From the IMG/VR virus record IMGVR_UViG_3300018432_000007, positions 1 to 55,697 of that record: a DNA stretch of 55,697 nucleotides; one strand, 5' to 3'. The notes beneath the pieces are model-generated. The model saw only the letters and a list, made by a program, of their open reading frames with translations, did not search any database and was not told the origin of the DNA. The position numbers and the translations under genes were made by a program. How positions within the stretch are numbered: the first letter of the stretch is position 1; the number at the start of each line of letters is the position of its first letter. Below, one piece after another: positions 11,440-55,697 of the stretch. This stretch comes from a virus.

Positions 11440-13644
11440 ATGGCTAACGATGCTGTGTCGACTGGAGACACGCAAGACGGACCCGACGAGGACGCGCGAG
11501 CGCTGCAGACCGCTGCGGACGCGCTCGCGGAGATCGGCACGGACCTGTTCATCAGCGACGACGGCGCCGTGACCGTGCAGGACCCGAACGAGGTGGCCTA
11601 CCTCGGCACCCTGACGGGCCCTGGGACGTGGGACTGGGAGGAGGATCGCCCGGACGCGCAGCGGATCGAGCCGCAGCACGCCGCGCAGATCGGCGCCGAG
11701 CTCGCGGTGGTCGACGAGCGCGTCGAGCCGCCCATCCCCGAGCGCGCGCAGGTCGTGCCCGCGTGGGCGACGGACGGGCGGGTGCTGCTGCCCTGGATCG
11801 GGGGTCGCACGGTCGACGGAGCGGCCCTTGCGGCGTTCCACGTCATCCGGGCGCCCTGGTACGCGCTGCGTGGCCTGACGGGCGTTGTACGCGGTGTGGG
11901 CCGGTGGATCGCCCGCACCGAGGACGACGAGCAGCACAAGGCAGACCTCGCCGCTGCCGGGTCGCTCAAGGCACGTGGCCGGCTGCGCGCCGTGCGCACC
12001 CGGGGCCGTGCCGTGCGGTTCGTCGCCTCGATGCTCCCGGTAGGTGCGATCGCCGCATGGCTGGAGTTCGGCCAGTGGGGCATCGTCCCGGCCGTGACGT
12101 GCACCGCGGCGTTCCTCGGGCTGGCGATCGGCGGGTGGCGTGCGTCGCACGTCGAGCGCACGCCGCGCGAGGCTGCGGCGATGCGCCGCAAGGTCCCCGC
12201 GCTGAGCCGCCCGTTCGTGTCCGAGGCGCTGGCGATCGTCGGCTGCGGCCCAGTGCCGATGCCGTCCGGCGGCATGGCGGGTCCTGTGGTGGTGTCGTCC
12301 TCCCCCGCGCGTGGCGGTGAGGTGATGGTGATCGACCTTCCCCCGGGCGTCGCCGTCTCGCGGCTGCTCAAGAAGCACGAGGAGTTCGCGCACGCGCTCG
12401 GGCGCCCCGCTGAGTGCGTCGTGATCGAGCCCCTGCCGCGCGTGTCCCCCGGCCGGTTCGAGCTGTTCGTGGCGTCCAAGCGCCTCGACGAGAAGGACCC
12501 ACCGCGGTGGGCGTGGCGCGACGGCAAGCGGCGTTCGTTCTTCGACGGTGTCCCCGTCGGTGTCGACGCACGCGGCCGGGAGGTGATCGTGCCGCTGTTC
12601 GAGGCCAACGGGCTGATCGCCGGTGCGACCGGCATGGGCAAGTCGTACACGGCGCGGCTGCTGCTCATGGGCGCCGCTCTGGACCCGACGGTTCGCCTGA
12701 TGATCCACAACCTGCGCGGCGGTCCCGACTACCGGGCGTTCGCGTCGGTCGCGCACACCCTGCGCGCCGGGTCGTCCGCTGCGGATCTCGATGCGCTGGC
12801 GGCTGACCTGGCGTGGATGCAGGCCGAGATCGAGCGTCGTGGCCGGGTGCTGGCGTCCCTGCCGGCGTCCGAGGTGCCCGAGTCCAAGCTCACGCCGGAG
12901 ATCGCCGCGCGCGAGGGCATGGGCCCGGTGATCCTGCTGGTGGACGAGGCACAGCGGGCGTTCATCTCCCGCATCGGGAAGCAGCTCGCCGTCCAGTTCG
13001 AGGACGTGGTGCGCACGGGCCGCGCCGTCGGGATGGACGTGCAGCTGGTCACGCAGGGCACCAAGGACGGGGCGATCCCGTCCGGGATCATGGACCAGCT
13101 GGTGCGCCGGATCGGGCACGGCGTGACGACGATCTCGGACGCGAACCTGATCCTCGGGTCCGACGCGCACGGGCGCACCCACCGCGCTGTCGACATCGAG
13201 GCGCCGGGCATCGCGTACGTGGGCACCGCCGGCGGGCAGATGGTCAAGGCCGCGATCGCCAAGGTGGACCTGCCCGACGTCGAGCGGATCGTGGCGCACG
13301 CCCACAAGCTGCGCAGCGCGGCCGGGACGCTGTCCGGGATGGCTGCGGGCGACGTCGCGCCGGACGAGCACGACGGCAGCGCGGCCTCGTTCCTGCACGA
13401 CGTGCTCGGGGTGTGGCCCACCGAGGGAGGCAAGCCGCGGCGTAACGCGCTGTCGGCCGAGCTCGCCGGGTACCTGATCGAGTGCGACGCGGACGAGTAC
13501 GGCGCGATCGATGGCCCGGACGTGTCGCGGCGCATGACCGATGCCGGGGTCAAGGTGTCCTCTCAGCGCACGCCAGCGGGCGACGGGCGGGGCGTGAAGC
13601 ACGCGGACGTCTCCCAGGCAGCGAGCGCCCTCGACGGGCCCTAG
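11440..13644 (+). CDS. FtsK/TraB-like DNA translocase
   Basis: 734 residues. Two hydrophobic helices near residues 195-235 anchor it in the membrane. The motor domain has Walker A (GATGMGKSYTA) near residue 398 and Walker B (VILLVDEAQRAF) near 496. The C-terminal 80 residues (ELAGYLIECDADEYGAIDG) look like a winged-helix domain such as the FtsK gamma or the TraB DNA-recognition domain. This layout matches translocases of Streptomyces-type plasmids (TraB/TraSA) that move double-stranded DNA, more than virion genes. ATG 11440 is behind AAAGGAC; a GTG at 11419 is less likely. Confidence 0.85.
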   Translation: MANDAVSTGDTQDGPDEDARALQTAADALAEIGTDLFISDDGAVTVQDPNEVAYLGTLTGPGTWDWEEDRPDAQRIEPQHAAQIGAELAVVDERVEPPIPERAQVVPAWATDGRVLLPWIGGRTVDGAALAAFHVIRAPWYALRGLTGVVRGVGRWIARTEDDEQHKADLAAAGSLKARGRLRAVRTRGRAVRFVASMLPVGAIAAWLEFGQWGIVPAVTCTAAFLGLAIGGWRASHVERTPREAAAMRRKVPALSRPFVSEALAIVGCGPVPMPSGGMAGPVVVSSSPARGGEVMVIDLPPGVAVSRLLKKHEEFAHALGRPAECVVIEPLPRVSPGRFELFVASKRLDEKDPPRWAWRDGKRRSFFDGVPVGVDARGREVIVPLFEANGLIAGATGMGKSYTARLLLMGAALDPTVRLMIHNLRGGPDYRAFASVAHTLRAGSSAADLDALAADLAWMQAEIERRGRVLASLPASEVPESKLTPEIAAREGMGPVILLVDEAQRAFISRIGKQLAVQFEDVVRTGRAVGMDVQLVTQGTKDGAIPSGIMDQLVRRIGHGVTTISDANLILGSDAHGRTHRAVDIEAPGIAYVGTAGGQMVKAAIAKVDLPDVERIVAHAHKLRSAAGTLSGMAAGDVAPDEHDGSAASFLHDVLGVWPTEGGKPRRNALSAELAGYLIECDADEYGAIDGPDVSRRMTDAGVKVSSQRTPAGDGRGVKHADVSQAASALDGP

Positions 13645-16909: not shown

Positions 16910-16977
16910 GTCTCCCGTGGTGACCGGGTCGGGACCGTCTCCCTGACCTCTGAAAGAACAGTACCACATGCATGTGG
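16910..16977 (-). promoter_or_regulatory. Operator/promoter/hairpin leader for 16352-16906
   Basis: Perfect palindrome CCACATGCATGTGG at 16964-16977, then TGG TACTGT (16958-16963), then the hairpin at 16927-16948 (GGTC, bulged A, GGGA, loop GACGG, TCCC, GACC) and a GGGAG ribosome site. Confidence 0.8.
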
Positions 16978-16979
16978 GG

Positions 16980-18335
16980 TCATGCGGCCATGCCGTTCCT
17001 GACCTGCTCGCGCAGCGCCAGGAGATGACGCACAGCTGCAGCAGCCTGGTGCGGAACGACGCCGTTGCCGAGCGCTTTCAGCGCATCGTTCCGCGAGATC
17101 GGCATCGTCCGGCGTGCGACCGAACCGCGGTGACCGACCGGCCGCGTGTCCCCGCCGGCTCGACGCTGCTGCAGCCGGGCACGCCACGCCTCGACGCTCT
17201 CACCTGTCACCCATCCGTCTGGGAGGCCCATCATCCACTCGACGAATCGCGGCGACAGGCGCGCAGCTCCCCCCTTCCCCGTTGCCTCGGTGGGGTCAGG
17301 TGCGGGACGCCCCAGGATCGACTCCCAGCGGGCCACGGCTGGGGCGTACTGGCGGAACCGGTGCGTCACCGCGCTGGGCAGCATCCGGTCGCCGGACGAG
17401 CCGCGCTGGTTCGGTCCCCCCTTGGTCCCGTCCGTAGCCCGGGGTGTGGGGAGCATGCGCAGCGCCTCGATCGCGAGGGACTTCCCGTGCCCGTTGCCGT
17501 TGCCGTGCGCCGACTTCATGCGTGCTGTCCAGGCGTCCCAGTCCGCGACCGCCTTGCCCGCTCCCATGTCGTTCACCGCCGGCGTCGGGAGCAGGGTCAC
17601 GGCTTCCGTACGAGCCGACCCACTGCCTCGTGCAGCGAGTCCCCGCCCGTCCCAGGCCGGTTCATCCGTGCGTAGTCCGGGCCACTGCTGCCCAGTTTCG
17701 CCTCGGGAGTCGGCAGCAGGCCAGGCAAGGACGAAGACTCGGAACCGCCCGTGAGGGGCGCCGACGTCGGAAGCGCGTACGCCCGTCCACCCAGCGTCAT
17801 ACCCGAGCTCGGCCAGGTCTCCGAGTACACGACCGAGTGCCCGCATAGGGTCTCCTCCGGCCTCTCCCATGCAGAAGTCGCAGCGTTCCAGGTGGCCAGT
17901 AGTTGCGGGGGCGTTGAGTGCTCCACGGACGTTCTCCCATACGACGAGTTGCGGGCGGATGATGTCTACGGCGTCACACATCGAGGCCCAGAGCCCCGAG
18001 CGGGTCCCTGGGCGCATCCCGGCGCGGTGACCGGCGTTGCTGAGGTCCTGGCACGGTGAGCCGCCCGAGACGACGTCTACGGGCTCGACCGCTGACCAGT
18101 CCACCTGGGTGACGTCACCGAGGTTCGGCACGCCGGGGAACCTGGTGGCGAGCACGTGGGACGGGGCGCGGTCTACCTCGGCAACCCAGGACGTCTCGAC
18201 GTCGAGCACCTGGGCCAGGCCCAGTTCCAAGCCGCCGTACCCCGCGAACAGGGCACCGGCCTTGAGGCGTCGCGGATATGGGCGAGCCCCCGTCCGGCTC
18301 TGGATGAGCCGGACGGGGGCGTGCCTGCTGATCAC
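16980..18335 (-). CDS. DNA (cytosine-5) methyltransferase
   Basis: 451 residues. Motif I is AGALFAGYGGLELGL, the catalytic PCQ loop is GGSPCQDLSNAG near residue 92, the ENV motif is VWENVRG near 135, and motif VIII-like VGAPHGRFRVFVLAWP follows. The C-terminal half holds two LLPTP/LPTPRATDG blocks and ends with the family's FVEWMMGLPDGW and NALKALGNGVVP. It methylates cytosine in an unknown site, most simply to protect phage DNA. GTG 18335 overlaps the upstream stop. A strong hairpin at 18286-18320 lies within its first codons, and a second coding-quality frame overlaps 17597-17926. Confidence 0.92.
   Translation of the reverse strand: MISRHAPVRLIQSRTGARPYPRRLKAGALFAGYGGLELGLAQVLDVETSWVAEVDRAPSHVLATRFPGVPNLGDVTQVDWSAVEPVDVVSGGSPCQDLSNAGHRAGMRPGTRSGLWASMCDAVDIIRPQLVVWENVRGALNAPATTGHLERCDFCMGEAGGDPMRALGRVLGDLAELGYDAGWTGVRASDVGAPHGRFRVFVLAWPAADSRGETGQQWPGLRTDEPAWDGRGLAARGSGSARTEAVTLLPTPAVNDMGAGKAVADWDAWTARMKSAHGNGNGHGKSLAIEALRMLPTPRATDGTKGGPNQRGSSGDRMLPSAVTHRFRQYAPAVARWESILGRPAPDPTEATGKGGAARLSPRFVEWMMGLPDGWVTGESVEAWRARLQQRRAGGDTRPVGHRGSVARRTMPISRNDALKALGNGVVPHQAAAAVRHLLALREQVRNGMAA
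17597..17926 (-). CDS. Alternative-frame ORF within the methyltransferase gene
   Basis: 109 residues in another frame of the same strand. It is not a random shadow: its third positions are mostly G/C, and it reads like the linker of phage cytosine methylases (SETWPSSGMTLGGRAYALP, APLTGGSESSS, then GLLPTPEAKLGSSGPDYARM). The LPTP block is the same kind found downstream in the main frame. It may be an overlapping gene, or the upstream part of a second protein that once joined the downstream frame near 17600. I cannot tell whether it is translated. Confidence 0.4.
   Translation of the reverse strand: MEHSTPPQLLATWNAATSAWERPEETLCGHSVVYSETWPSSGMTLGGRAYALPTSAPLTGGSESSSLPGLLPTPEAKLGSSGPDYARMNRPGTGGDSLHEAVGRLVRKP
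18286..18320 (-). terminator. Strong hairpin at the 18332/18335 gene junction
   Basis: A perfect 15-bp stem (GCCCCCGTCCGGCTC with its complement) around a 5-base loop. It lies just past the stop of 18332-19237 and therefore also in the 5' coding part of the methyltransferase. It may terminate or strongly attenuate transcription into that gene. Confidence 0.6.
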
Positions 18336-19237: not shown

Positions 19238-19309
19238 GATGTCTCCCTGGGTGACTCTGGTCGGGACTCGCTCCCTGACCTCTGACAGAACAGTACCACA
19301 TGCATGTGG
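19238..19309 (-). promoter_or_regulatory. Operator/promoter/hairpin leader for 18332-19237
   Basis: Perfect palindrome at 19296-19309, TGG TACTGT at the -10 (19290-19295), hairpin at 19259-19280 (GGTC, A, GGGA, loop GCGAG, TCCC, GACC) and a GGGAG ribosome site. Confidence 0.8.
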
Positions 19310-19679: not shown

Positions 19680-19750
19680 GGTGTCTCCCGTGTGACTGGG
19701 TCGGGACTCTCTCCCTGACCTCGTGACAGAACAGTACCACATTCATGTGG
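19680..19750 (-). promoter_or_regulatory. Operator/promoter/hairpin leader for 19347-19679
   Basis: Near-perfect palindrome CCACATTCATGTGG at 19737-19750, TGG TACTGT (19731-19736), hairpin at 19699-19720 with loop GAGAG, and a GGGAG ribosome site. Confidence 0.8.
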
Positions 19751-20354: not shown

Positions 20355-20369
20355 GGTGTCAGACCAAGC

Positions 20370-20545
20370 CGTCACAGCGGTGACACGGGGTGTTGTGCTG
20401 GTGCTGTGTCACCGGGCTGTGTCAGTGCCGCAGCCGCGCGTTTCCGGGGCTGTAAGGGCGTGTCAGGCCGGGAACGCCCGTAGGGCCCCCGCGCACGCGC
20501 GCGGGGGCCCTACGGGGTCTGTGGCGATCTGCTGACACGTGACAC
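20370..20545 (-). promoter_or_regulatory. Cluster of TGTCA/TGACA sites upstream of the exonuclease gene
   Basis: Seven copies of GTGTCA or its complement occur in about 170 bases, including a TGACACGTGACAC pair near 20533-20545 and a GTCACAGCGGTGACA dyad near 20373-20387. The spacing is irregular. It looks like an operator array for a second regulator. Confidence 0.45.
20479..20514. terminator. Strong GC-rich hairpin
   Basis: A stem of at least 15 bp (CGTAGGGCCCCCGCG with its complement) with a very small GC-rich loop, between the zinc-finger gene and the exonuclease gene. It probably ends the leftward transcript of the zinc-finger gene. Confidence 0.7.
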
Positions 20546-20582
20546 AGGTGGAGCGGCGCCCGTGGGCGCCGCTCCGGTCGTG

Positions 20583-20741
20583 CTAGCCCTGCGGGCGTGG
20601 ATCCCCGTTGCCGGGGTGCTCGTCCTTGAGGTGCTGCACCAGCGCTGAGAAGTTCCTGCACCTCTCGCCGCACTGGTCGCACTTGGGCTTGCCCAGCATC
20701 CCGTCGGCGATCTTGTCCAGTTCGTCACCCGTGGGTGGCAT
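20583..20741 (-). CDS. Single C2H2-type zinc-finger protein
   Basis: 52 residues. CDQCGERCRNFSALVQHLKDEH has two cysteines, a 12-residue spacer with an aromatic and leucine, and two histidines, the classic C2H2 finger spacing apart from a slightly longer His-His gap. It is preceded by its own operator, hairpin and an AGGAGG site, so it is a deliberately regulated unit. A DNA- or RNA-binding role is plausible; it is another candidate for recognising the repeated elements. Confidence 0.72.
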   Translation of the reverse strand: MPPTGDELDKIADGMLGKPKCDQCGERCRNFSALVQHLKDEHPGNGDPRPQG

Positions 20742-20812
20742 GTTGACCTCCTGGTCTCCGGGCCGGGGCGGTTCCCCTGACCTCGTACCCTCAGATTACC
20801 ACATGCATGTGG
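20742..20812 (-). promoter_or_regulatory. Operator/promoter/hairpin leader for 20583-20741
   Basis: Perfect palindrome at 20799-20812, TGG TAATCT (20793-20798), hairpin at 20761-20782 written GGTC, A, GGGG, loop AACCG, CCCC, GGCC. The inner closing pair differs from other copies but still pairs. Confidence 0.8.
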
Positions 20813-20814
20813 GG

Positions 20815-21009
20815 TCAGGTGTACGCCTTGCCGCTCTCGCGGACGACGTCGCCCGCGAACTCGGAGATCTGCCCCTCGTCGCTCGTGGTGAGCGTCCCCG
20901 TCTGCTGCCCGGCTGCGTTGCACACCACGATGTGCAACGCGCCGTCCCTGTGCACCACGTGCACTGTGCAAGGTGCGCCGGTGTTGCCGATCGTCCACTT
21001 GGTGGCCAT
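20815..21009 (-). CDS. Hypothetical protein
   Basis: 64 residues with alternating beta pattern (CTVHVVHRDGALHIVVCN) and an acidic helix near the end (SEFAGDVVRESGKAY). An AGAGGAA site precedes the ATG. Its stop lies three bases from the palindrome of the next unit. Family not recognised. Confidence 0.65.
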   Translation of the reverse strand: MATKWTIGNTGAPCTVHVVHRDGALHIVVCNAAGQQTGTLTTSDEGQISEFAGDVVRESGKAYT

Positions 21010-21039
21010 CGTCGTTCCTCTCGGTCGGTGAGTTGCAGG

Positions 21040-22203
21040 TCAGCCCATGGCCGCGATGACCACGTCACGGTCGTTGTATGCAGTGCGCAGGCTCGCCTTG
21101 AAACCTGCAGCGAGCAGGGCCTTGTGCACCATGTCCCCGGTTGCATCGCGGTGCTGCTGCAAGAACTCGCGGACCACCTCGCGCCGGTCGGTCACCGTGG
21201 CGTTCTTGGGGGTCTCGACGGGCCGACGCGCAGTGGGCAGGTCGGCCAGGATTGCAGACGCCTCCCGCTGCACAGCGGCTGCAGCCCGGGCGGCGTACTC
21301 GTGCACATCTGCAGTTGCAGGCCCTGCAGTTGCAGGCTCGGGCTGCAGGTCTGCAGGTGCAGATGCAACTGCAACGGGGTGTGCAACTGCAGGTGCAGAC
21401 TGCAGAACCTGCACGTGTGCAGCATCTGCAGGTGCAGGCTGCACGTGGTCTGCAACTGCAATCAGGTCGCCCTGCATCTTGTGTGCAGTGCTGGCCGCGA
21501 TCGCTGCAACCGAGACGCGGACCTGCTCGGCGTACTGCGCAGACCGCAGCCACGCGCCCAGTTCGGCGTCCCGCTCCTCGCGGGGCACGTGCTTGGCGAT
21601 CCGGCGCGCAGCGGCACGGGCCCGCGCAGCGGCCAGAGGAGCGCGCCAGGAGCCGTGTGCCAGCCCCTCGGCCTCTCCGGCCTTGAAGAACCGGTACAGG
21701 AGCGTGTGGCGGCTCTCCTGGGCCCGGTGGGCACGGTGCCGTGCACCACAGAACAGGTGGATCACCAGTTCCCAGAGCCCGGCGGCGAGGAACGGCGCGA
21801 ACATGCGCCACCCGGCAGCCGACGCAGCGGCGGACAGGGTCAGGTTCCCGGCCAGGTACTCCATGATCTCGAACAGGGCACCGAACAGCCCCGAGACGCC
21901 GGACAGCGCCCACGTCGCGGTGCGGAACACTGCGGTCGGCTGGAGCCGGTACGCCTCGATGAACGTGGCCCCGGCGACCACGGCCAGGGCCAGTTCGATG
22001 ACGCCGCCGAACAGGTAGGACGTGATCTCGGGCAGTTGCATGACGTTCTGCGCGAACGCCACGCCACCCAGGTAGGCCGCGCCGTTGGCGACGACGGCGA
22101 CGAGCAGCACGGCAAACGTGAGCGCGATCAGCAGCCGGCGGATGAATGCAGGCTCGGCCATGTGTGCAGGAGCTGCAGGCGTGGTGGTGTGGTCGGTGTG
22201 CAC
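21040..22203 (-). CDS. Spd/DUF2637-like membrane protein with DNA-binding-like C-terminus
   Basis: 387 residues. Four or more membrane helices occupy about residues 20-150 (LLIALTFAVLLVAVVANGAA, YLFGGVIELALAVVAGATF and others). A basic region, an Ala/Pro/Val/Gln low-complexity linker, and a C-terminal winged-helix-like part (VVREFLQQHRDATGDMVHKA) follow. This layout recalls Spd-type proteins of actinobacterial conjugative plasmids, which also carry a TraB/FtsK-like translocase, as here at 11440. The linker DNA is packed with TGCA, using otherwise rare codons. GTG 22203 has an AGAGGAA site. Confidence 0.6.
   Translation of the reverse strand: MHTDHTTTPAAPAHMAEPAFIRRLLIALTFAVLLVAVVANGAAYLGGVAFAQNVMQLPEITSYLFGGVIELALAVVAGATFIEAYRLQPTAVFRTATWALSGVSGLFGALFEIMEYLAGNLTLSAAASAAGWRMFAPFLAAGLWELVIHLFCGARHRAHRAQESRHTLLYRFFKAGEAEGLAHGSWRAPLAAARARAAARRIAKHVPREERDAELGAWLRSAQYAEQVRVSVAAIAASTAHKMQGDLIAVADHVQPAPADAAHVQVLQSAPAVAHPVAVASAPADLQPEPATAGPATADVHEYAARAAAAVQREASAILADLPTARRPVETPKNATVTDRREVVREFLQQHRDATGDMVHKALLAAGFKASLRTAYNDRDVVIAAMG
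21253..21487. repeat. TGCA-dense tract inside the Spd-like gene
   Basis: 26 copies of the self-complementary tetramer TGCA in 235 bases; about one would be expected by chance. Many arise from codon pairs such as ACT GCA and CCT GCA, unusual in this GC-rich genome, so selection seems to act on DNA. Confidence 0.85.
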
Positions 22204-22294
22204 TGGGATTCCTCTCTGTGCAGGCGGTCGGGACTCGTTCCCTGACCTGGTCCGCAGACCGTACCACATGCATGTGGGATTGCACATGCATGTG
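22204..22294 (-). promoter_or_regulatory. Double operator/promoter/hairpin leader for 21040-22203
   Basis: Perfect palindrome at 22264-22277 plus a second CACATGCATGTG at 22283-22294. The first abuts TGG TACGGT (22258-22263). Hairpin at 22226-22247 (GGTC, A, GGGA, loop ACGAG, TCCC, GACC), then an AGAGGAA ribosome site. Confidence 0.8.
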
Positions 22295-22430
22295 TGCAGA
22301 CGCTGTTACGGATGCATGCTTGTGACCTGCACAGTTGCAGTTGCACACCGGGATTGCAGATCACCTGCAGAGACCTGTTGCATGGCTTCTGCACATGCAA
22401 GAGGGCCCGTTGCACACCTGGTGTGCAACG
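22281..22430. repeat. TGCA-dense noncoding tract upstream of the Spd-like gene
   Basis: 14 TGCA copies in 150 noncoding bases, continuing the enrichment seen inside the gene. It overlaps the second operator and the terminator at 22405-22432. Candidate cis-acting site for partition, transfer or replication. Confidence 0.7.
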
Positions 22431-22432
22431 GG
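22405..22432 (-). terminator. Terminator of the 27697-22453 operon
   Basis: GCCCGTTGCACACC is followed by its complement with almost no loop (effective stem about 12 bp). It lies 20 bases past the stop of 22453-22632. Confidence 0.7.
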
Positions 22433-22452
22433 CTCTCGGTTCTGCAGACGGG

Positions 22453-32122: not shown

Positions 32123-32917
32123 ATGCCCATCCACCAGAAGATCACCGAGGCCGAGTACAACGCGCTCCCCGGCCTACGGAACTCCGCCATCAAGGGCGTA
32201 CTGGAGAGCCCGGCCCTGTACAAGCACGGCCTGGACAACCCCAGCACGGCCAAGCACTTCACCATCGGGTCAGCCGTCCACTCCCTGCTGCTGGAGGAGG
32301 GCAAGACCGTCGTGCACGTCCCGGTCGACAACTGGAAGACCAAGGACGCCCAGGAGCGGCGCGACGCCGCGCTGGCCGATGGCAAGTACCCGCTGAACAA
32401 CGCCGAGCACGAGCAGGCCCAGGCCATGGCCGCACGCCTGCGCACCGACCCCGACGTGGCCAAGCACCTGCGCGCCGGGCAGACCGAGGTCACCCTCACC
32501 GGCCACCACGAGCAGACGTTCACGCCGATCAAGGCACGCCTGGACATCCTCGACGTGGAAGCCCGCGTGATCATGGACCCCAAGACCACGGCCACCGCCG
32601 ACCGTGACGCGTTCGGCACCACGGCCTACCGTCACGGGTACTACATGCAGGCCCCGCACTACATCGATCTCGCAGCCCAGGCCACAGACACCGACCCGGC
32701 CGAGTGGCGGTTCCTGTTCGCGGTCATCAGCAAGAGCGCCCCGTACCAGATGTTCGTCACCGAACTCGACGAGGACTCCCTCGCGCTCGGGCGCCGCGAC
32801 CGGGACCGGGGCATCGATCTCTACCTGGAGTGCCAGCGCACCGGGAAGTGGCCCGACTTCCCCGGCCAGGTCGGTGTCACCACCACCCGCCTGCCCCGCT
32901 GGGCCCTGCTGTCCTGA
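32123..32917 (+). CDS. RecE-like exonuclease (PD-(D/E)XK)
   Basis: 264 residues. N-terminal YNALPGLRNSAIKGVLESPA and HFTIGSAVHSLLLEEG are typical of RecE/exonuclease VIII-like phage nucleases. The catalytic core is KARLDILDVEARVIMDPKTT (D near residue 138 and DxK near 152). The motif QAPHYIDLAA is the QxxxY box. The enzyme resects double-stranded ends 5' to 3', providing single strands for the ERF protein encoded next. GAGAGGAA precedes the ATG. Confidence 0.85.
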   Translation: MPIHQKITEAEYNALPGLRNSAIKGVLESPALYKHGLDNPSTAKHFTIGSAVHSLLLEEGKTVVHVPVDNWKTKDAQERRDAALADGKYPLNNAEHEQAQAMAARLRTDPDVAKHLRAGQTEVTLTGHHEQTFTPIKARLDILDVEARVIMDPKTTATADRDAFGTTAYRHGYYMQAPHYIDLAAQATDTDPAEWRFLFAVISKSAPYQMFVTELDEDSLALGRRDRDRGIDLYLECQRTGKWPDFPGQVGVTTTRLPRWALLS

Positions 32918-32968
32918 CCCGCCCCTGCCCGACCACACACACCACAGACCCACCGGGGGAGCCCCACC

Positions 32969-33604
32969 ATGAACGACACCCTGAACGACCGCATCGAGGC
33001 TGTGAAGCGGAACCAGGACCTCTACAAGGCGCTGCTCGCGGCTGACCTGCCCGTCGTCGAGAAGACCAAGACCGCGCGGATCCAGACGAACAACGGCCCC
33101 GCCTACTCGTACACCTATGCGGACCTCGCGGCGATCGACCAGCAGGTAACGCCCGTCCTGCGGGAGAACCACCTGCTGATGGATTTCGAGATGCACGACG
33201 CGCCCGACGGAACACCGATCCTTACCGGGATGCTGATCCACCCCGAGTCCGGCGGATTCAAGACGTCCGAGTGGAAGGTCACCGGCCGCACCCCGCAGGA
33301 CCAGGGAGGCTCGATCACCTACGGGCGCCGGTACCTGACCGGCATCCTCACCGGCGTCATCACCGACGAGGACACCGACGGTCGCCAGGCCAACCCCGGC
33401 GCCCCGGCCGCACCAGCCAAGCGGCAGGCCAAGCCCAGCAACCCCGCAACGCCCGCCCAGCTGGAACGCCTCGGGCAGGCCAGTGCCGCCGGGATCGACC
33501 TGGGCGCCGTGATGCAGCAGACCATCGGCCGTGTGGCCGGGCAGCGCAGCATCACCGAGGACGAGGCCACGAAGGTTCTGCAGGCAGTGGACGCTCAGTC
33601 CTAA
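32969..33604 (+). CDS. ERF family single-strand annealing protein
   Basis: 211 residues. The conserved ERF features are GPAYSYTYADLAAIDQQVTP, LRENHLLM, HPESGGF, and DQGGSITYGRRYLTG followed by TDEDTDG. It coats and anneals single-stranded DNA for recombination-dependent repair, replication or circularisation. The disordered middle linker is followed by a small helical C-terminal domain (TPAQLERLGQASAAGID). It pairs with the RecE-like nuclease upstream. Confidence 0.88.
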   Translation: MNDTLNDRIEAVKRNQDLYKALLAADLPVVEKTKTARIQTNNGPAYSYTYADLAAIDQQVTPVLRENHLLMDFEMHDAPDGTPILTGMLIHPESGGFKTSEWKVTGRTPQDQGGSITYGRRYLTGILTGVITDEDTDGRQANPGAPAAPAKRQAKPSNPATPAQLERLGQASAAGIDLGAVMQQTIGRVAGQRSITEDEATKVLQAVDAQS

Positions 33605-54039: not shown

Positions 54040-55697
54040 TCAGCTCGCGGCCGGCTGCAGCTGCGACCAGCCCGTTCGTACGGTGGTCATCGCCGCGGGC
54101 GCCGCGATGCACTGACACCCGGCATGGTCACCGGGGAACGCCTCGTACCCGCCGGCGAACACGCTGACCCCGTTGAACAGCGCGTCCTTGAGCGAGAGGT
54201 GCACGGGGTGCGGGTCAGGACCCTGGTACAGGTGCAGCCACCGGTGTGACCCGGGCCCCGACGGGGGTGCTAGGCCGTGGTCCCGACGGATGATCGCCAG
54301 GGTGGCCGCTGCCAGCGCGATCCCGCTGGCGGCTTGCCGAAAATCCCCCGGTTCACCACCTCCCGCGATCGTCGCGACTTCTCGTGCGGCCTCCCACGCC
54401 TCGGCTATCCCGGTGCCACCTTCCTGCTGCACGGCGACCGTGGCAGCGACCGCGGACACGAACGCGGCCTGCGCGGCTGTCATGCCCTCCTGCTCGGGCT
54501 CGGGGGGCACCTCGATGCCCATGGCCCGCAGGCGACCCTGCGCGCGGGCGATGATCCGGGCGACCTTGGCGATCGCGGCCTCGGCCACCTGCTGGATGGT
54601 GGCGTCCCGGTTCGGTACCTCGCCGGTGTACGCCCGGGCGAGTTCCGCGTTGGGCACGTCCGGGAGATCGATGTTCCGGCCCTGCGCGATACTGCGGATC
54701 TTCGCGCCCAGCTTCTCCAGCGCCCGCTCCGCGATGTCCAGGATCAGGTCCTCAAGCGACGTGTACGCCTGCTCGTCGATCTCGGCCAGGCGCGTCCCGT
54801 CGATCGGCGGTGTGGTCGCCGCAGTGGTCGGCGCGCCGGTGATCTGCCGGGTCTCTTCCTGCTCGACCGGCTCGTTCCCGGTCGGCGTGTCGGGGTCCTC
54901 CTCGGGCGCCGGGTCCTCCTGTGCGATCCCGTCGCCTACGGCGTCGTCGGGGGCACCGAGCTGTTCGGCCACCCACCACAGCTTGACGATCCCGAGTTCG
55001 CCCGCGTGGATCACGTCGGCCAGTGGCGGGCGTCGTCGCAGCAGCGGCGCCGGGTCCGGGACGACGTCCAGGCGCCCCTCTGGGACGCTCGCGGCGATCG
55101 TCAGCCCCTCAGCGAACGCCTGCCCCACCGGAGCGGCCAGTGGCTCCACGTGACCCAACCAGTTGTCCTCAAGCGACGCGTACGCGCTCCACTGGTTCGA
55201 GTCCTCAAGGCCCAGCAGGATCGAGGGCGCGATGTCGAGCCCGATCGCGAGCTGGCGCACCAGGCGCTCGATGCGGTCGTGCAGCTTCTCGTCGATGGGG
55301 CCGGTCAGGTCGAGAACGCGCCACTTCTCGATGAACTCGGCGGGGAACCCCACGATGTTCGGGACTGCGACCGCCTCGGCCTTTTCGTCCGAGAGCGGCG
55401 CGGTGACCACCTTGGCCAGGTCGCTCTCGAACTTCTTGGGGTTCGGCCCGGCCCCCTCCTTGGGGTACAGGACCATCATGGTCTGCGCGGTCCGGGAGCG
55501 GGCCGTGGCGCGCGCCTGCGCACGCGTCAGGATCAGTTCTGTGGCGATGTCCCGGATAGCAGCCACCGGCGAGTCGGCGCGGTTCGGGATGGCCGGGTCT
55601 TCCAGGATCACCTCGACCAGGACGTCAGCCTGCTCGGCGAGCTTCTTCTGCTCGCTGGTGAGCGGCGAGTTGAAGATCCGCCACTCGGTGCCGCCGC
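54040..55697 (-). CDS. Portal protein, C-terminal part (with MuF-like end)
   Basis: The continuation of the gene at 1-454; this piece holds about residues 111-662. After the portal core (KVVTAPLSDEKAEAVAVPNI, LAIGLDIAPSILLGLEDSNQ) comes an Ala/Glu-rich helical region. The last 60 residues (GSHRWLHLYQGPDPHPVHLS and FAGGYEAFPGDHAGCQCIA) resemble the end of MuF-type minor capsid proteins. The total of 662 residues is longer than normal portals (about 450-550), consistent with a portal-MuF fusion. It runs off the right edge and re-enters at 1. Confidence 0.85.
   Translation of the reverse strand, partial: GGTEWRIFNSPLTSEQKKLAEQADVLVEVILEDPAIPNRADSPVAAIRDIATELILTRAQARATARSRTAQTMMVLYPKEGAGPNPKKFESDLAKVVTAPLSDEKAEAVAVPNIVGFPAEFIEKWRVLDLTGPIDEKLHDRIERLVRQLAIGLDIAPSILLGLEDSNQWSAYASLEDNWLGHVEPLAAPVGQAFAEGLTIAASVPEGRLDVVPDPAPLLRRRPPLADVIHAGELGIVKLWWVAEQLGAPDDAVGDGIAQEDPAPEEDPDTPTGNEPVEQEETRQITGAPTTAATTPPIDGTRLAEIDEQAYTSLEDLILDIAERALEKLGAKIRSIAQGRNIDLPDVPNAELARAYTGEVPNRDATIQQVAEAAIAKVARIIARAQGRLRAMGIEVPPEPEQEGMTAAQAAFVSAVAATVAVQQEGGTGIAEAWEAAREVATIAGGGEPGDFRQAASGIALAAATLAIIRRDHGLAPPSGPGSHRWLHLYQGPDPHPVHLSLKDALFNGVSVFAGGYEAFPGDHAGCQCIAAPAAMTTVRTGWSQLQPAAS
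55575..55697. repeat. Direct terminal repeat, right copy
   Basis: Identical to 1-123. Its presence shows the sequence closes into a circle of about 55,574 bp. Confidence 0.9.

Follow-up and report, generated by a model that had tools for sequence, protein, structure and literature searches.

The DNA analysed here, called the window throughout, is a single virus record, 55,697 bases long, from an actinobacterial phage; it has recognisable genes for terminase, portal, capsid, tape-measure protein and endolysin. The record is classed as linear, yet bases 1–123 are repeated without a mismatch at 55575–55697, so the genome is probably complete and circularly permuted, at ~55.57 kb. No integrase was found among the window genes searched, nor were ParA and ParB in the subset of ORFs covered; the absence of integrase and ParA among these genes would suit a plasmid-like prophage. 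The window also encodes a C5 cytosine methyltransferase (PF00145) at 16980–18335 and, at 32123–33604, a recombination pair made of an Exonuclease VIII-like and an Erf-like protein.

The locus under study is built around the gene of an Spd-like protein. Its features, together with a presumed partner encoded elsewhere in the window, are as follows.

21040–22203, minus strand: gene of the Spd-like membrane/HTH protein, 387 aa, GTG start (ORF and GC3 call; start set by the ribosome-binding-like GAGAGGAAT; the sister-phage protein begins at the equivalent GTG)
21754–22149, minus strand: predicted membrane domain, residues about 19–150, four long helices (AlphaFold2 helices and hydropathy peaks)
21253–21508, minus strand: coding TGCA array, 27 sites, residues 232–317, mostly in the low-confidence (disordered) linker; kept in the sister phage
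21043–21195, minus strand: predicted C-terminal HTH, residues 337–387 (three helices, block pLDDT 85–94; aligns to the HTH ends of relatives)
20804–21037, no strand assigned: weaker TGCA-rich extension across the next gene (20815–21009), from TGCA positions; also downstream in the sister phage
22269–22446, no strand assigned: noncoding TGCA array, 16 sites, 5' of the Spd-like gene around its putative promoter, from TGCA positions
22264–22277, minus strand: CCACATGCATGTGG palindrome overlapping the extended −10-like TGTGGTANNNT (motif scan)
22283–22294: second palindrome copy, CACATGCATGTG, 5' of the Spd-like gene (motif scan)
22401–22437, minus strand: terminator-like hairpin with 18-nt arms and a 1-nt loop, two TGCA inside
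11440–13644, plus strand: gene of an FtsK/SpoIIIE/TraB-like DNA translocase, the presumed partner, located apart from the Spd-like gene (phrog_1358, E 1.2e-24; PF01580, E 1e-9; 70% identical homologue in the sister phage)

As for the protein, its predicted layout starts with four membrane helices; a helical stretch and a disordered linker follow, and three helices make up the C-terminal domain. AlphaFold2 places helices at residues 19–53, 59–85, 89–117 and 123–180, hydropathy peaks fall at 17–51, 59–85 and 134–152, and segments of low pLDDT span 249–305 and 317–334; the model has a mean pLDDT of 62.6 and is weak outside the HTH, and a single-sequence fold of the C-terminus gave two merged helices against the three of the AlphaFold2 model. 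The protein has no Pfam, PHROG or NCBIfam match (no Pfam family at E ≤ 1), and a Foldseek comparison of the whole model with the PDB returned nothing with E below 1.

Regarding the upstream region, the promoter-like block at 22264–22277 is one of five near-identical minus-strand blocks, the others lying at 16964–16977, 19296–19309, 19737–19750 (with one palindrome mismatch) and 20799–20812; each consists of CCCACATGCATGTGGTANNNT followed by the inverted repeat GGTCAGGGA...TCCCGACC, ~60 bp 5' of a start codon. The core of the palindrome is TGCA, and copies of ACATGCATGT occur in the sister phage too. A possible second site cluster, GTGTCA/TGACAC seven times within 250 bp (20356–20605), is mostly intergenic and lies 5' of an RNase H/DnaQ-like gene.

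The TGCA array and its coding constraint

The initial annotation reported 26 TGCA in 235 bp of coding sequence and 14 in about 150 bp of noncoding sequence, and both counts hold: in a window scan, the densest 235-bp stretch starts at 21250 and contains 26 copies, the densest 150-bp stretch starts at 21302 and contains 20, and 14 noncoding copies fall between 22281 and 22424; the 193 bases from 22258 have 16, against 0.75 expected. Outside 20.7–22.7 kb the maxima are 6 per 235 bp and 4 per 150 bp, so that the clusters at 21253–21508 (27 sites) and 22269–22446 (16 sites) are unique in the window; a milder enrichment runs on through 20804–21158. The Markov-model check points the same way, since 60 sequences as long as the window, generated by an order-3 model fitted to its remainder, reached maxima of only 4–7 TGCA per 235 bp and 3–6 per 150 bp. 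Of the 271 TGCA in the window, 208 lie outside 20.7–22.7 kb, where 196 are expected from trinucleotides; there the word is neither enriched nor avoided.

Selection acts on the DNA of the linker, as the initial annotation had maintained. Synonymous coding of the linker peptide allows at most 30 TGCA, and 27 are present; simulation with the phage codon usage gave 4.4 ± 1.3 (maximum 10 in 5000 draws), and shuffling the linker's own synonymous codons gave 14.5 ± 2.0 (maximum 22 in 5000 draws). The rarity of the codons involved (ACT and CCT before GCA) was likewise correctly described: Thr is ACT in 3/3 linker codons vs 44/1095 in the other predicted genes, Pro is CCT in 6/8 vs 55/1040, and Ala is GCA in 20/30 vs 172/1871. 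The sites use two reading phases (20 NNT-GCA, 7 NTG-CAN) and are irregularly spaced; a helical phasing test detected no 10.5 bp period in the array, and short local tandem units are present in the low-complexity Ala/Pro linker.

Absence of the array from close relatives with the same protein, named at the outset as evidence against its significance, is not what was found. The sister phage L301 (a record of 56,130 bases) encodes the same Spd-like protein, with 81% identity to that of the window in the membrane part, 52% in the linker (64% at the nucleotide level) and 63% in the C-terminus, where the stretch LRTAYNDRD is unchanged. Its aligned linker has 25 TGCA, of a maximum of 28, and a further 18 occur upstream at −254 to −55; only 10 of its linker sites share an alignment column with the 27 of the window. 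Judged from this alignment, the sites have turned over between the two phages and the density has been kept. The FtsK-like proteins of the two phages are 70% identical, and no homologue of the window methyltransferase was found in the L301 record at E 1e-5.

Arrays of other words in the protein family

The first lead to relatives was plasmid pXCEL01 of Xylanimonas, a weak match (31.5% over ~120 aa, E 0.01), from which an alignment-based search led to 12 loci, nearly all in Micrococcales genomes. By sample, relatives occurred in 14 of 396 genomes of the order, 65 of 221 of the family and 2 of 296 of the phylum; the phylum-wide sample brought no new genome, as G001 and G037 had both been found before. 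Viral contigs contributed 16 and 24 overlapping loci, that is 25 genes analysed. As single queries, P0001 and the FtsK-like protein returned no viral relatives, a protein search of a phage collection gave nothing for P0001, the pXCEL01 protein or the L310 fragment, and the terminase relatives L123–L125 stop short of the Spd locus. An exact-pattern scan of viral contigs for TGCANN was set aside: among the matches listed, the densest loci were mostly simple tandem repeats in unrelated contigs. L225, which has masked bases, and the fragment L160 were left out, the former from the array counts. In the literature searched, which excluded most subscription papers, no published description of such arrays was found.

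Relatives carry arrays of other words at the same place in the gene, namely CGGACA, CCGGTCC, GGTCGC, GGTCACA, GGTTTCA, CCGTACG and GGGTACC. Among 15 integrative-element-like genes, picked for their position directly downstream of an FtsK/TraB-like gene, 13 have CGGACA (13–29 copies per gene, vs 0.35–1.5 per kb elsewhere in the locus), and L218 and L228 have CGGTCC/CCGGAC. The viral-contig genes are more varied: GGTCGC is found in L304, L334 and L333, GGTCACA in L310, a weaker GGTCAAC array in L308, GGTTTCA in L330 and L332, GGTTKCG in L305, GGGTACC in L311 and L335, GTGACAC in L327, and CCGTACG in L319/L307 and in L336 (53 copies vs 9.8 in shuffles). L336 is the extreme member, its 53 copies within one Spd-like gene arising partly via peptide repeats. 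Two elements with a CGGACA array also encode C5 methyltransferases, which share 55% (L161:11475–13079) and 46% (L216:9264–10664; both oriented loci) identity with that of the phage.

Enrichment of the best 6-mer reached z ≥ 5 in 13/15 integrative-element genes vs 4/58 other genes of the same loci, and in 17/25 viral-contig genes vs 3/41, under a codon-shuffle null that is loose (the median best z of ordinary genes is 3.8–3.9). At z ≥ 6 the counts were 10/15 and 13/25, vs 0/99 controls; a looser array criterion let 3/23 control genes pass. Spd-like genes without an FtsK-like neighbour resemble controls (z ≥ 5 in 2/28, median 3.75). The enrichment is not universal: z was below 5 in 8/25 viral-contig genes, the array is weak or absent in L316, L318, L322, L325, L328, L329 and L331 from viral contigs, and no clear array was seen in pXCEL01 (L126), L138, L164 and L226 despite an FtsK-like ORF. 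Shuffling the codons of the linker only left a small excess in L218 and L228 (11 vs 6.6 and 12 vs 8.1). Loci of the PF10935/DUF2637 type (n = 35) are mostly without arrays, with one present in L288, L289 and L293.

Two further observations concern individual relatives. A second, noncoding array of CTAG or GCTACC lies 3' of the Spd-like gene at L129:7128–7275 and similarly in L138, L217 and L220–L223, where it perhaps represents replication iterons. L165, likely a prophage, combines a terminase 34.6% identical to that of the window with an Spd-like gene that has little or no array.

Candidate readers of the array

Array motif similarity follows HTH similarity. In a partial Mantel test on 41 hand-chosen genes, controlling for membrane domain and linker and with HTH borders set by hand, the HTH had r 0.64 (p 0.0005), the membrane domain 0.09 (p 0.056) and the linker −0.03; linker similarity adds nothing in this full set once the HTH is included. 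The set leaves out the near duplicates L215 and L337, as well as L138, L164, L226 and the Spd-like genes without an FtsK neighbour. When motifs were counted in linker DNA only, so that HTH-coding DNA cannot contribute, the HTH kept a partial r of 0.51 (p 0.0005), with the membrane domain at 0.139 (p 0.013) in this unthinned set. Thinned sets gave an HTH term of 0.19 (p 0.0025, 30 genes) and 0.18 (p 0.002, 25 genes), and with 30 genes the linker kept a partial correlation of 0.134 (p 0.046). The HTH is encoded on the same piece of DNA as the array, so part of this covariation could also arise from their being inherited together. Genes sharing an HTH type also share a word, as in L304/L334 (HTHs 80% identical), L330/L332 (87%) and L336/L307 (52%).

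Other features of the arrays narrow down the nature of the reader. Genome G557 carries both L218 (CGGTCC) and L221 (CGGACA), two words in one host, which indicates that the reader is encoded by the element. CGGACA occurs in both orientations within arrays (e.g., 13 and 9 copies in L224), which points to DNA as the target and not mRNA. On the other hand, TGCA amounts to just 8 bits and is not avoided in the rest of the window, so a reader would have to gain its specificity from the clustering of sites. Of the binders named in the initial annotation, the Spd-like C-terminus is thus the best supported, since motif similarity tracks its HTH; on balance, this HTH probably binds the TGCA array in and upstream of the gene that encodes it, and the locus would form a self-encoded membrane address for maintenance or transfer.

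A different reader was also considered, namely the C-terminal winged helix of the phage's FtsK/TraB-like translocase, for which the array would be a clt-like loading site. This has a precedent in TraB and clt (available text of PMC12857230 and PMC3583192), and arrays are common beside an FtsK-like gene (13/15) and rare without one (2/28), but a natural experiment among the relatives makes it unlikely: the FtsK-like proteins of L219 and L228 are 84% identical overall and 97% in their last 100 residues, whereas their HTHs and words differ (14 vs 3 in-gene copies of CGGACA, 2 vs 17 of CGGTCC). Conversely, L218 and L228 have HTH type and word in common, with only 55% identity in the last 100 residues of FtsK. 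In addition, the FtsK gene of the window is 7.4 kb away from the array, and a sequence search did not find its homologue in 15/24 viral records, several with arrays, although these records may be partial. Finally, the palindromic TGCA and the mixed orientation of CGGACA provide no polarity, which argues against a polar translocase signal and also disfavours the earlier suggestion of a mark for strand or end recognition. A transcriptional or copy-control device, with a regulator acting on the TGCA clusters at the promoter and in the gene by autoregulation, looping or titration and no membrane tether, would account for the 16 sites around the promoter and for five exact ACATGCATGT palindromes centred on TGCA, of which four lie ~60 bp 5' of minus-strand starts; the link between motif and HTH fits autoregulation as well. 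It too is judged improbable, as most sites are 700–950 nt inside the gene and the integrative-element gene directly follows the FtsK gene and is preceded by few copies of its motif.

Another possibility dispenses with DNA binding altogether: selection at the level of the protein or of translation, or simple repeats leaving the array as a mutational by-product. The low-complexity Ala/Pro linker with its local tandem units and the peptide repeats of some relatives (L336) could be taken in its favour. It is nonetheless very unlikely: own-codon shuffles, which keep peptide and codons, yield about half the sites, part of the array is noncoding, two codon phases are used and relatives show both orientations, and the spacing is irregular, with site turnover in L301. 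Least probable is the proposal, made in the initial annotation, that the array is a target cluster of the phage cytosine methyltransferase. The enzyme is present, and elements L161 and L216 as well as record G891 encode homologues, but in the sister phage record the array is present and no homologue was found, L161 and L216 carry CGGACA and not TGCA, and 7/8 viral records searched lack the enzyme.

A putative membrane address and its precedents

If the Spd-like protein reads its own gene, the array would be a multi-copy target, placed in the linker-coding DNA and the promoter region, of the HTH encoded by that gene. The N-terminal helices would anchor the protein in the membrane, the disordered linker would be its flexible arm, and the HTH carried at the far end would dock by avidity on a dense cluster of weak sites. 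The locus may thereby serve as an element-specific centromere- or clt-like address tethering phage or element DNA at the membrane, with docking probably near the FtsK/TraB-like translocase; it would serve maintenance or cell-to-cell transfer, and the upstream part of the array may add autoregulation. A partition or transfer site, one of the meanings first put forward, is among the best-supported readings.

The closest precedent is SpdA2/sps of pIJ101. According to the available text of PMC4170104, SpdA2 recognises palindromic sites within its own coding sequence and contributes to segregational stability; in pIJ101 and other Streptomyces plasmids the sps sites lie in the spdA coding region or just upstream, loss lowers segregational stability, SpdA proteins have 117–163 aa and a conserved N-terminal DNA-binding region, and one conserved 12-bp palindrome is present in 2–3 copies. 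The window sites are also inside or just upstream of their own gene. However, the window protein has 387 aa, with predicted N-terminal membrane helices and C-terminal HTH, its sites are 27 coding and 16 upstream copies of the 4-bp TGCA, and the word varies between members of its family.

As for the clt system, Streptomyces TraB reads 8-bp repeats (PMC12857230 and PMC3583192, available text); clt repeats are described there as 5–9 bp long and low in number; most lie near tra, and TraB is their reader. The likeness lies in a mobile element combining an FtsK-like translocase, an Spd membrane protein and a cluster of short repeats, and the difference in that the motif here does not track the FtsK winged helix, as judged from one natural experiment in relatives (L219/L228) and not from the window itself. 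DUF2637 (PF10935) proteins share the N-terminal membrane helices and the HTH-like C-terminal end, and the C-terminus of the pXCEL01 relative can be aligned with the pCPRO01 member; the window protein, however, has no PF10935 match, and most of the 35 sampled DUF2637 genes have no arrays. In ParB/parS centromeres, clustered short palindromes are bound by an element-encoded HTH protein; the window protein differs in its predicted membrane anchor and in having sites inside its own gene, with no ParA/ParB among the genes searched.

In conclusion, the amino-acid content of protein-coding DNA here follows a DNA array. If the arrays are Spd binding sites, phages and integrative elements would share a single-gene anchor whose target word can be read, the specificity code could be derived from natural word–HTH pairs, and synonymous changes alone would suffice to tell what the DNA does from what the protein does. 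More tentatively, these genes may define an actinobacterial phage and mobile-element family in which linker-coding DNA is the binding array of its own protein and word and HTH co-diversify, so that a private membrane address would keep two elements in one cell unmixed; a single gene would then be centromere, anchor and incompatibility code.
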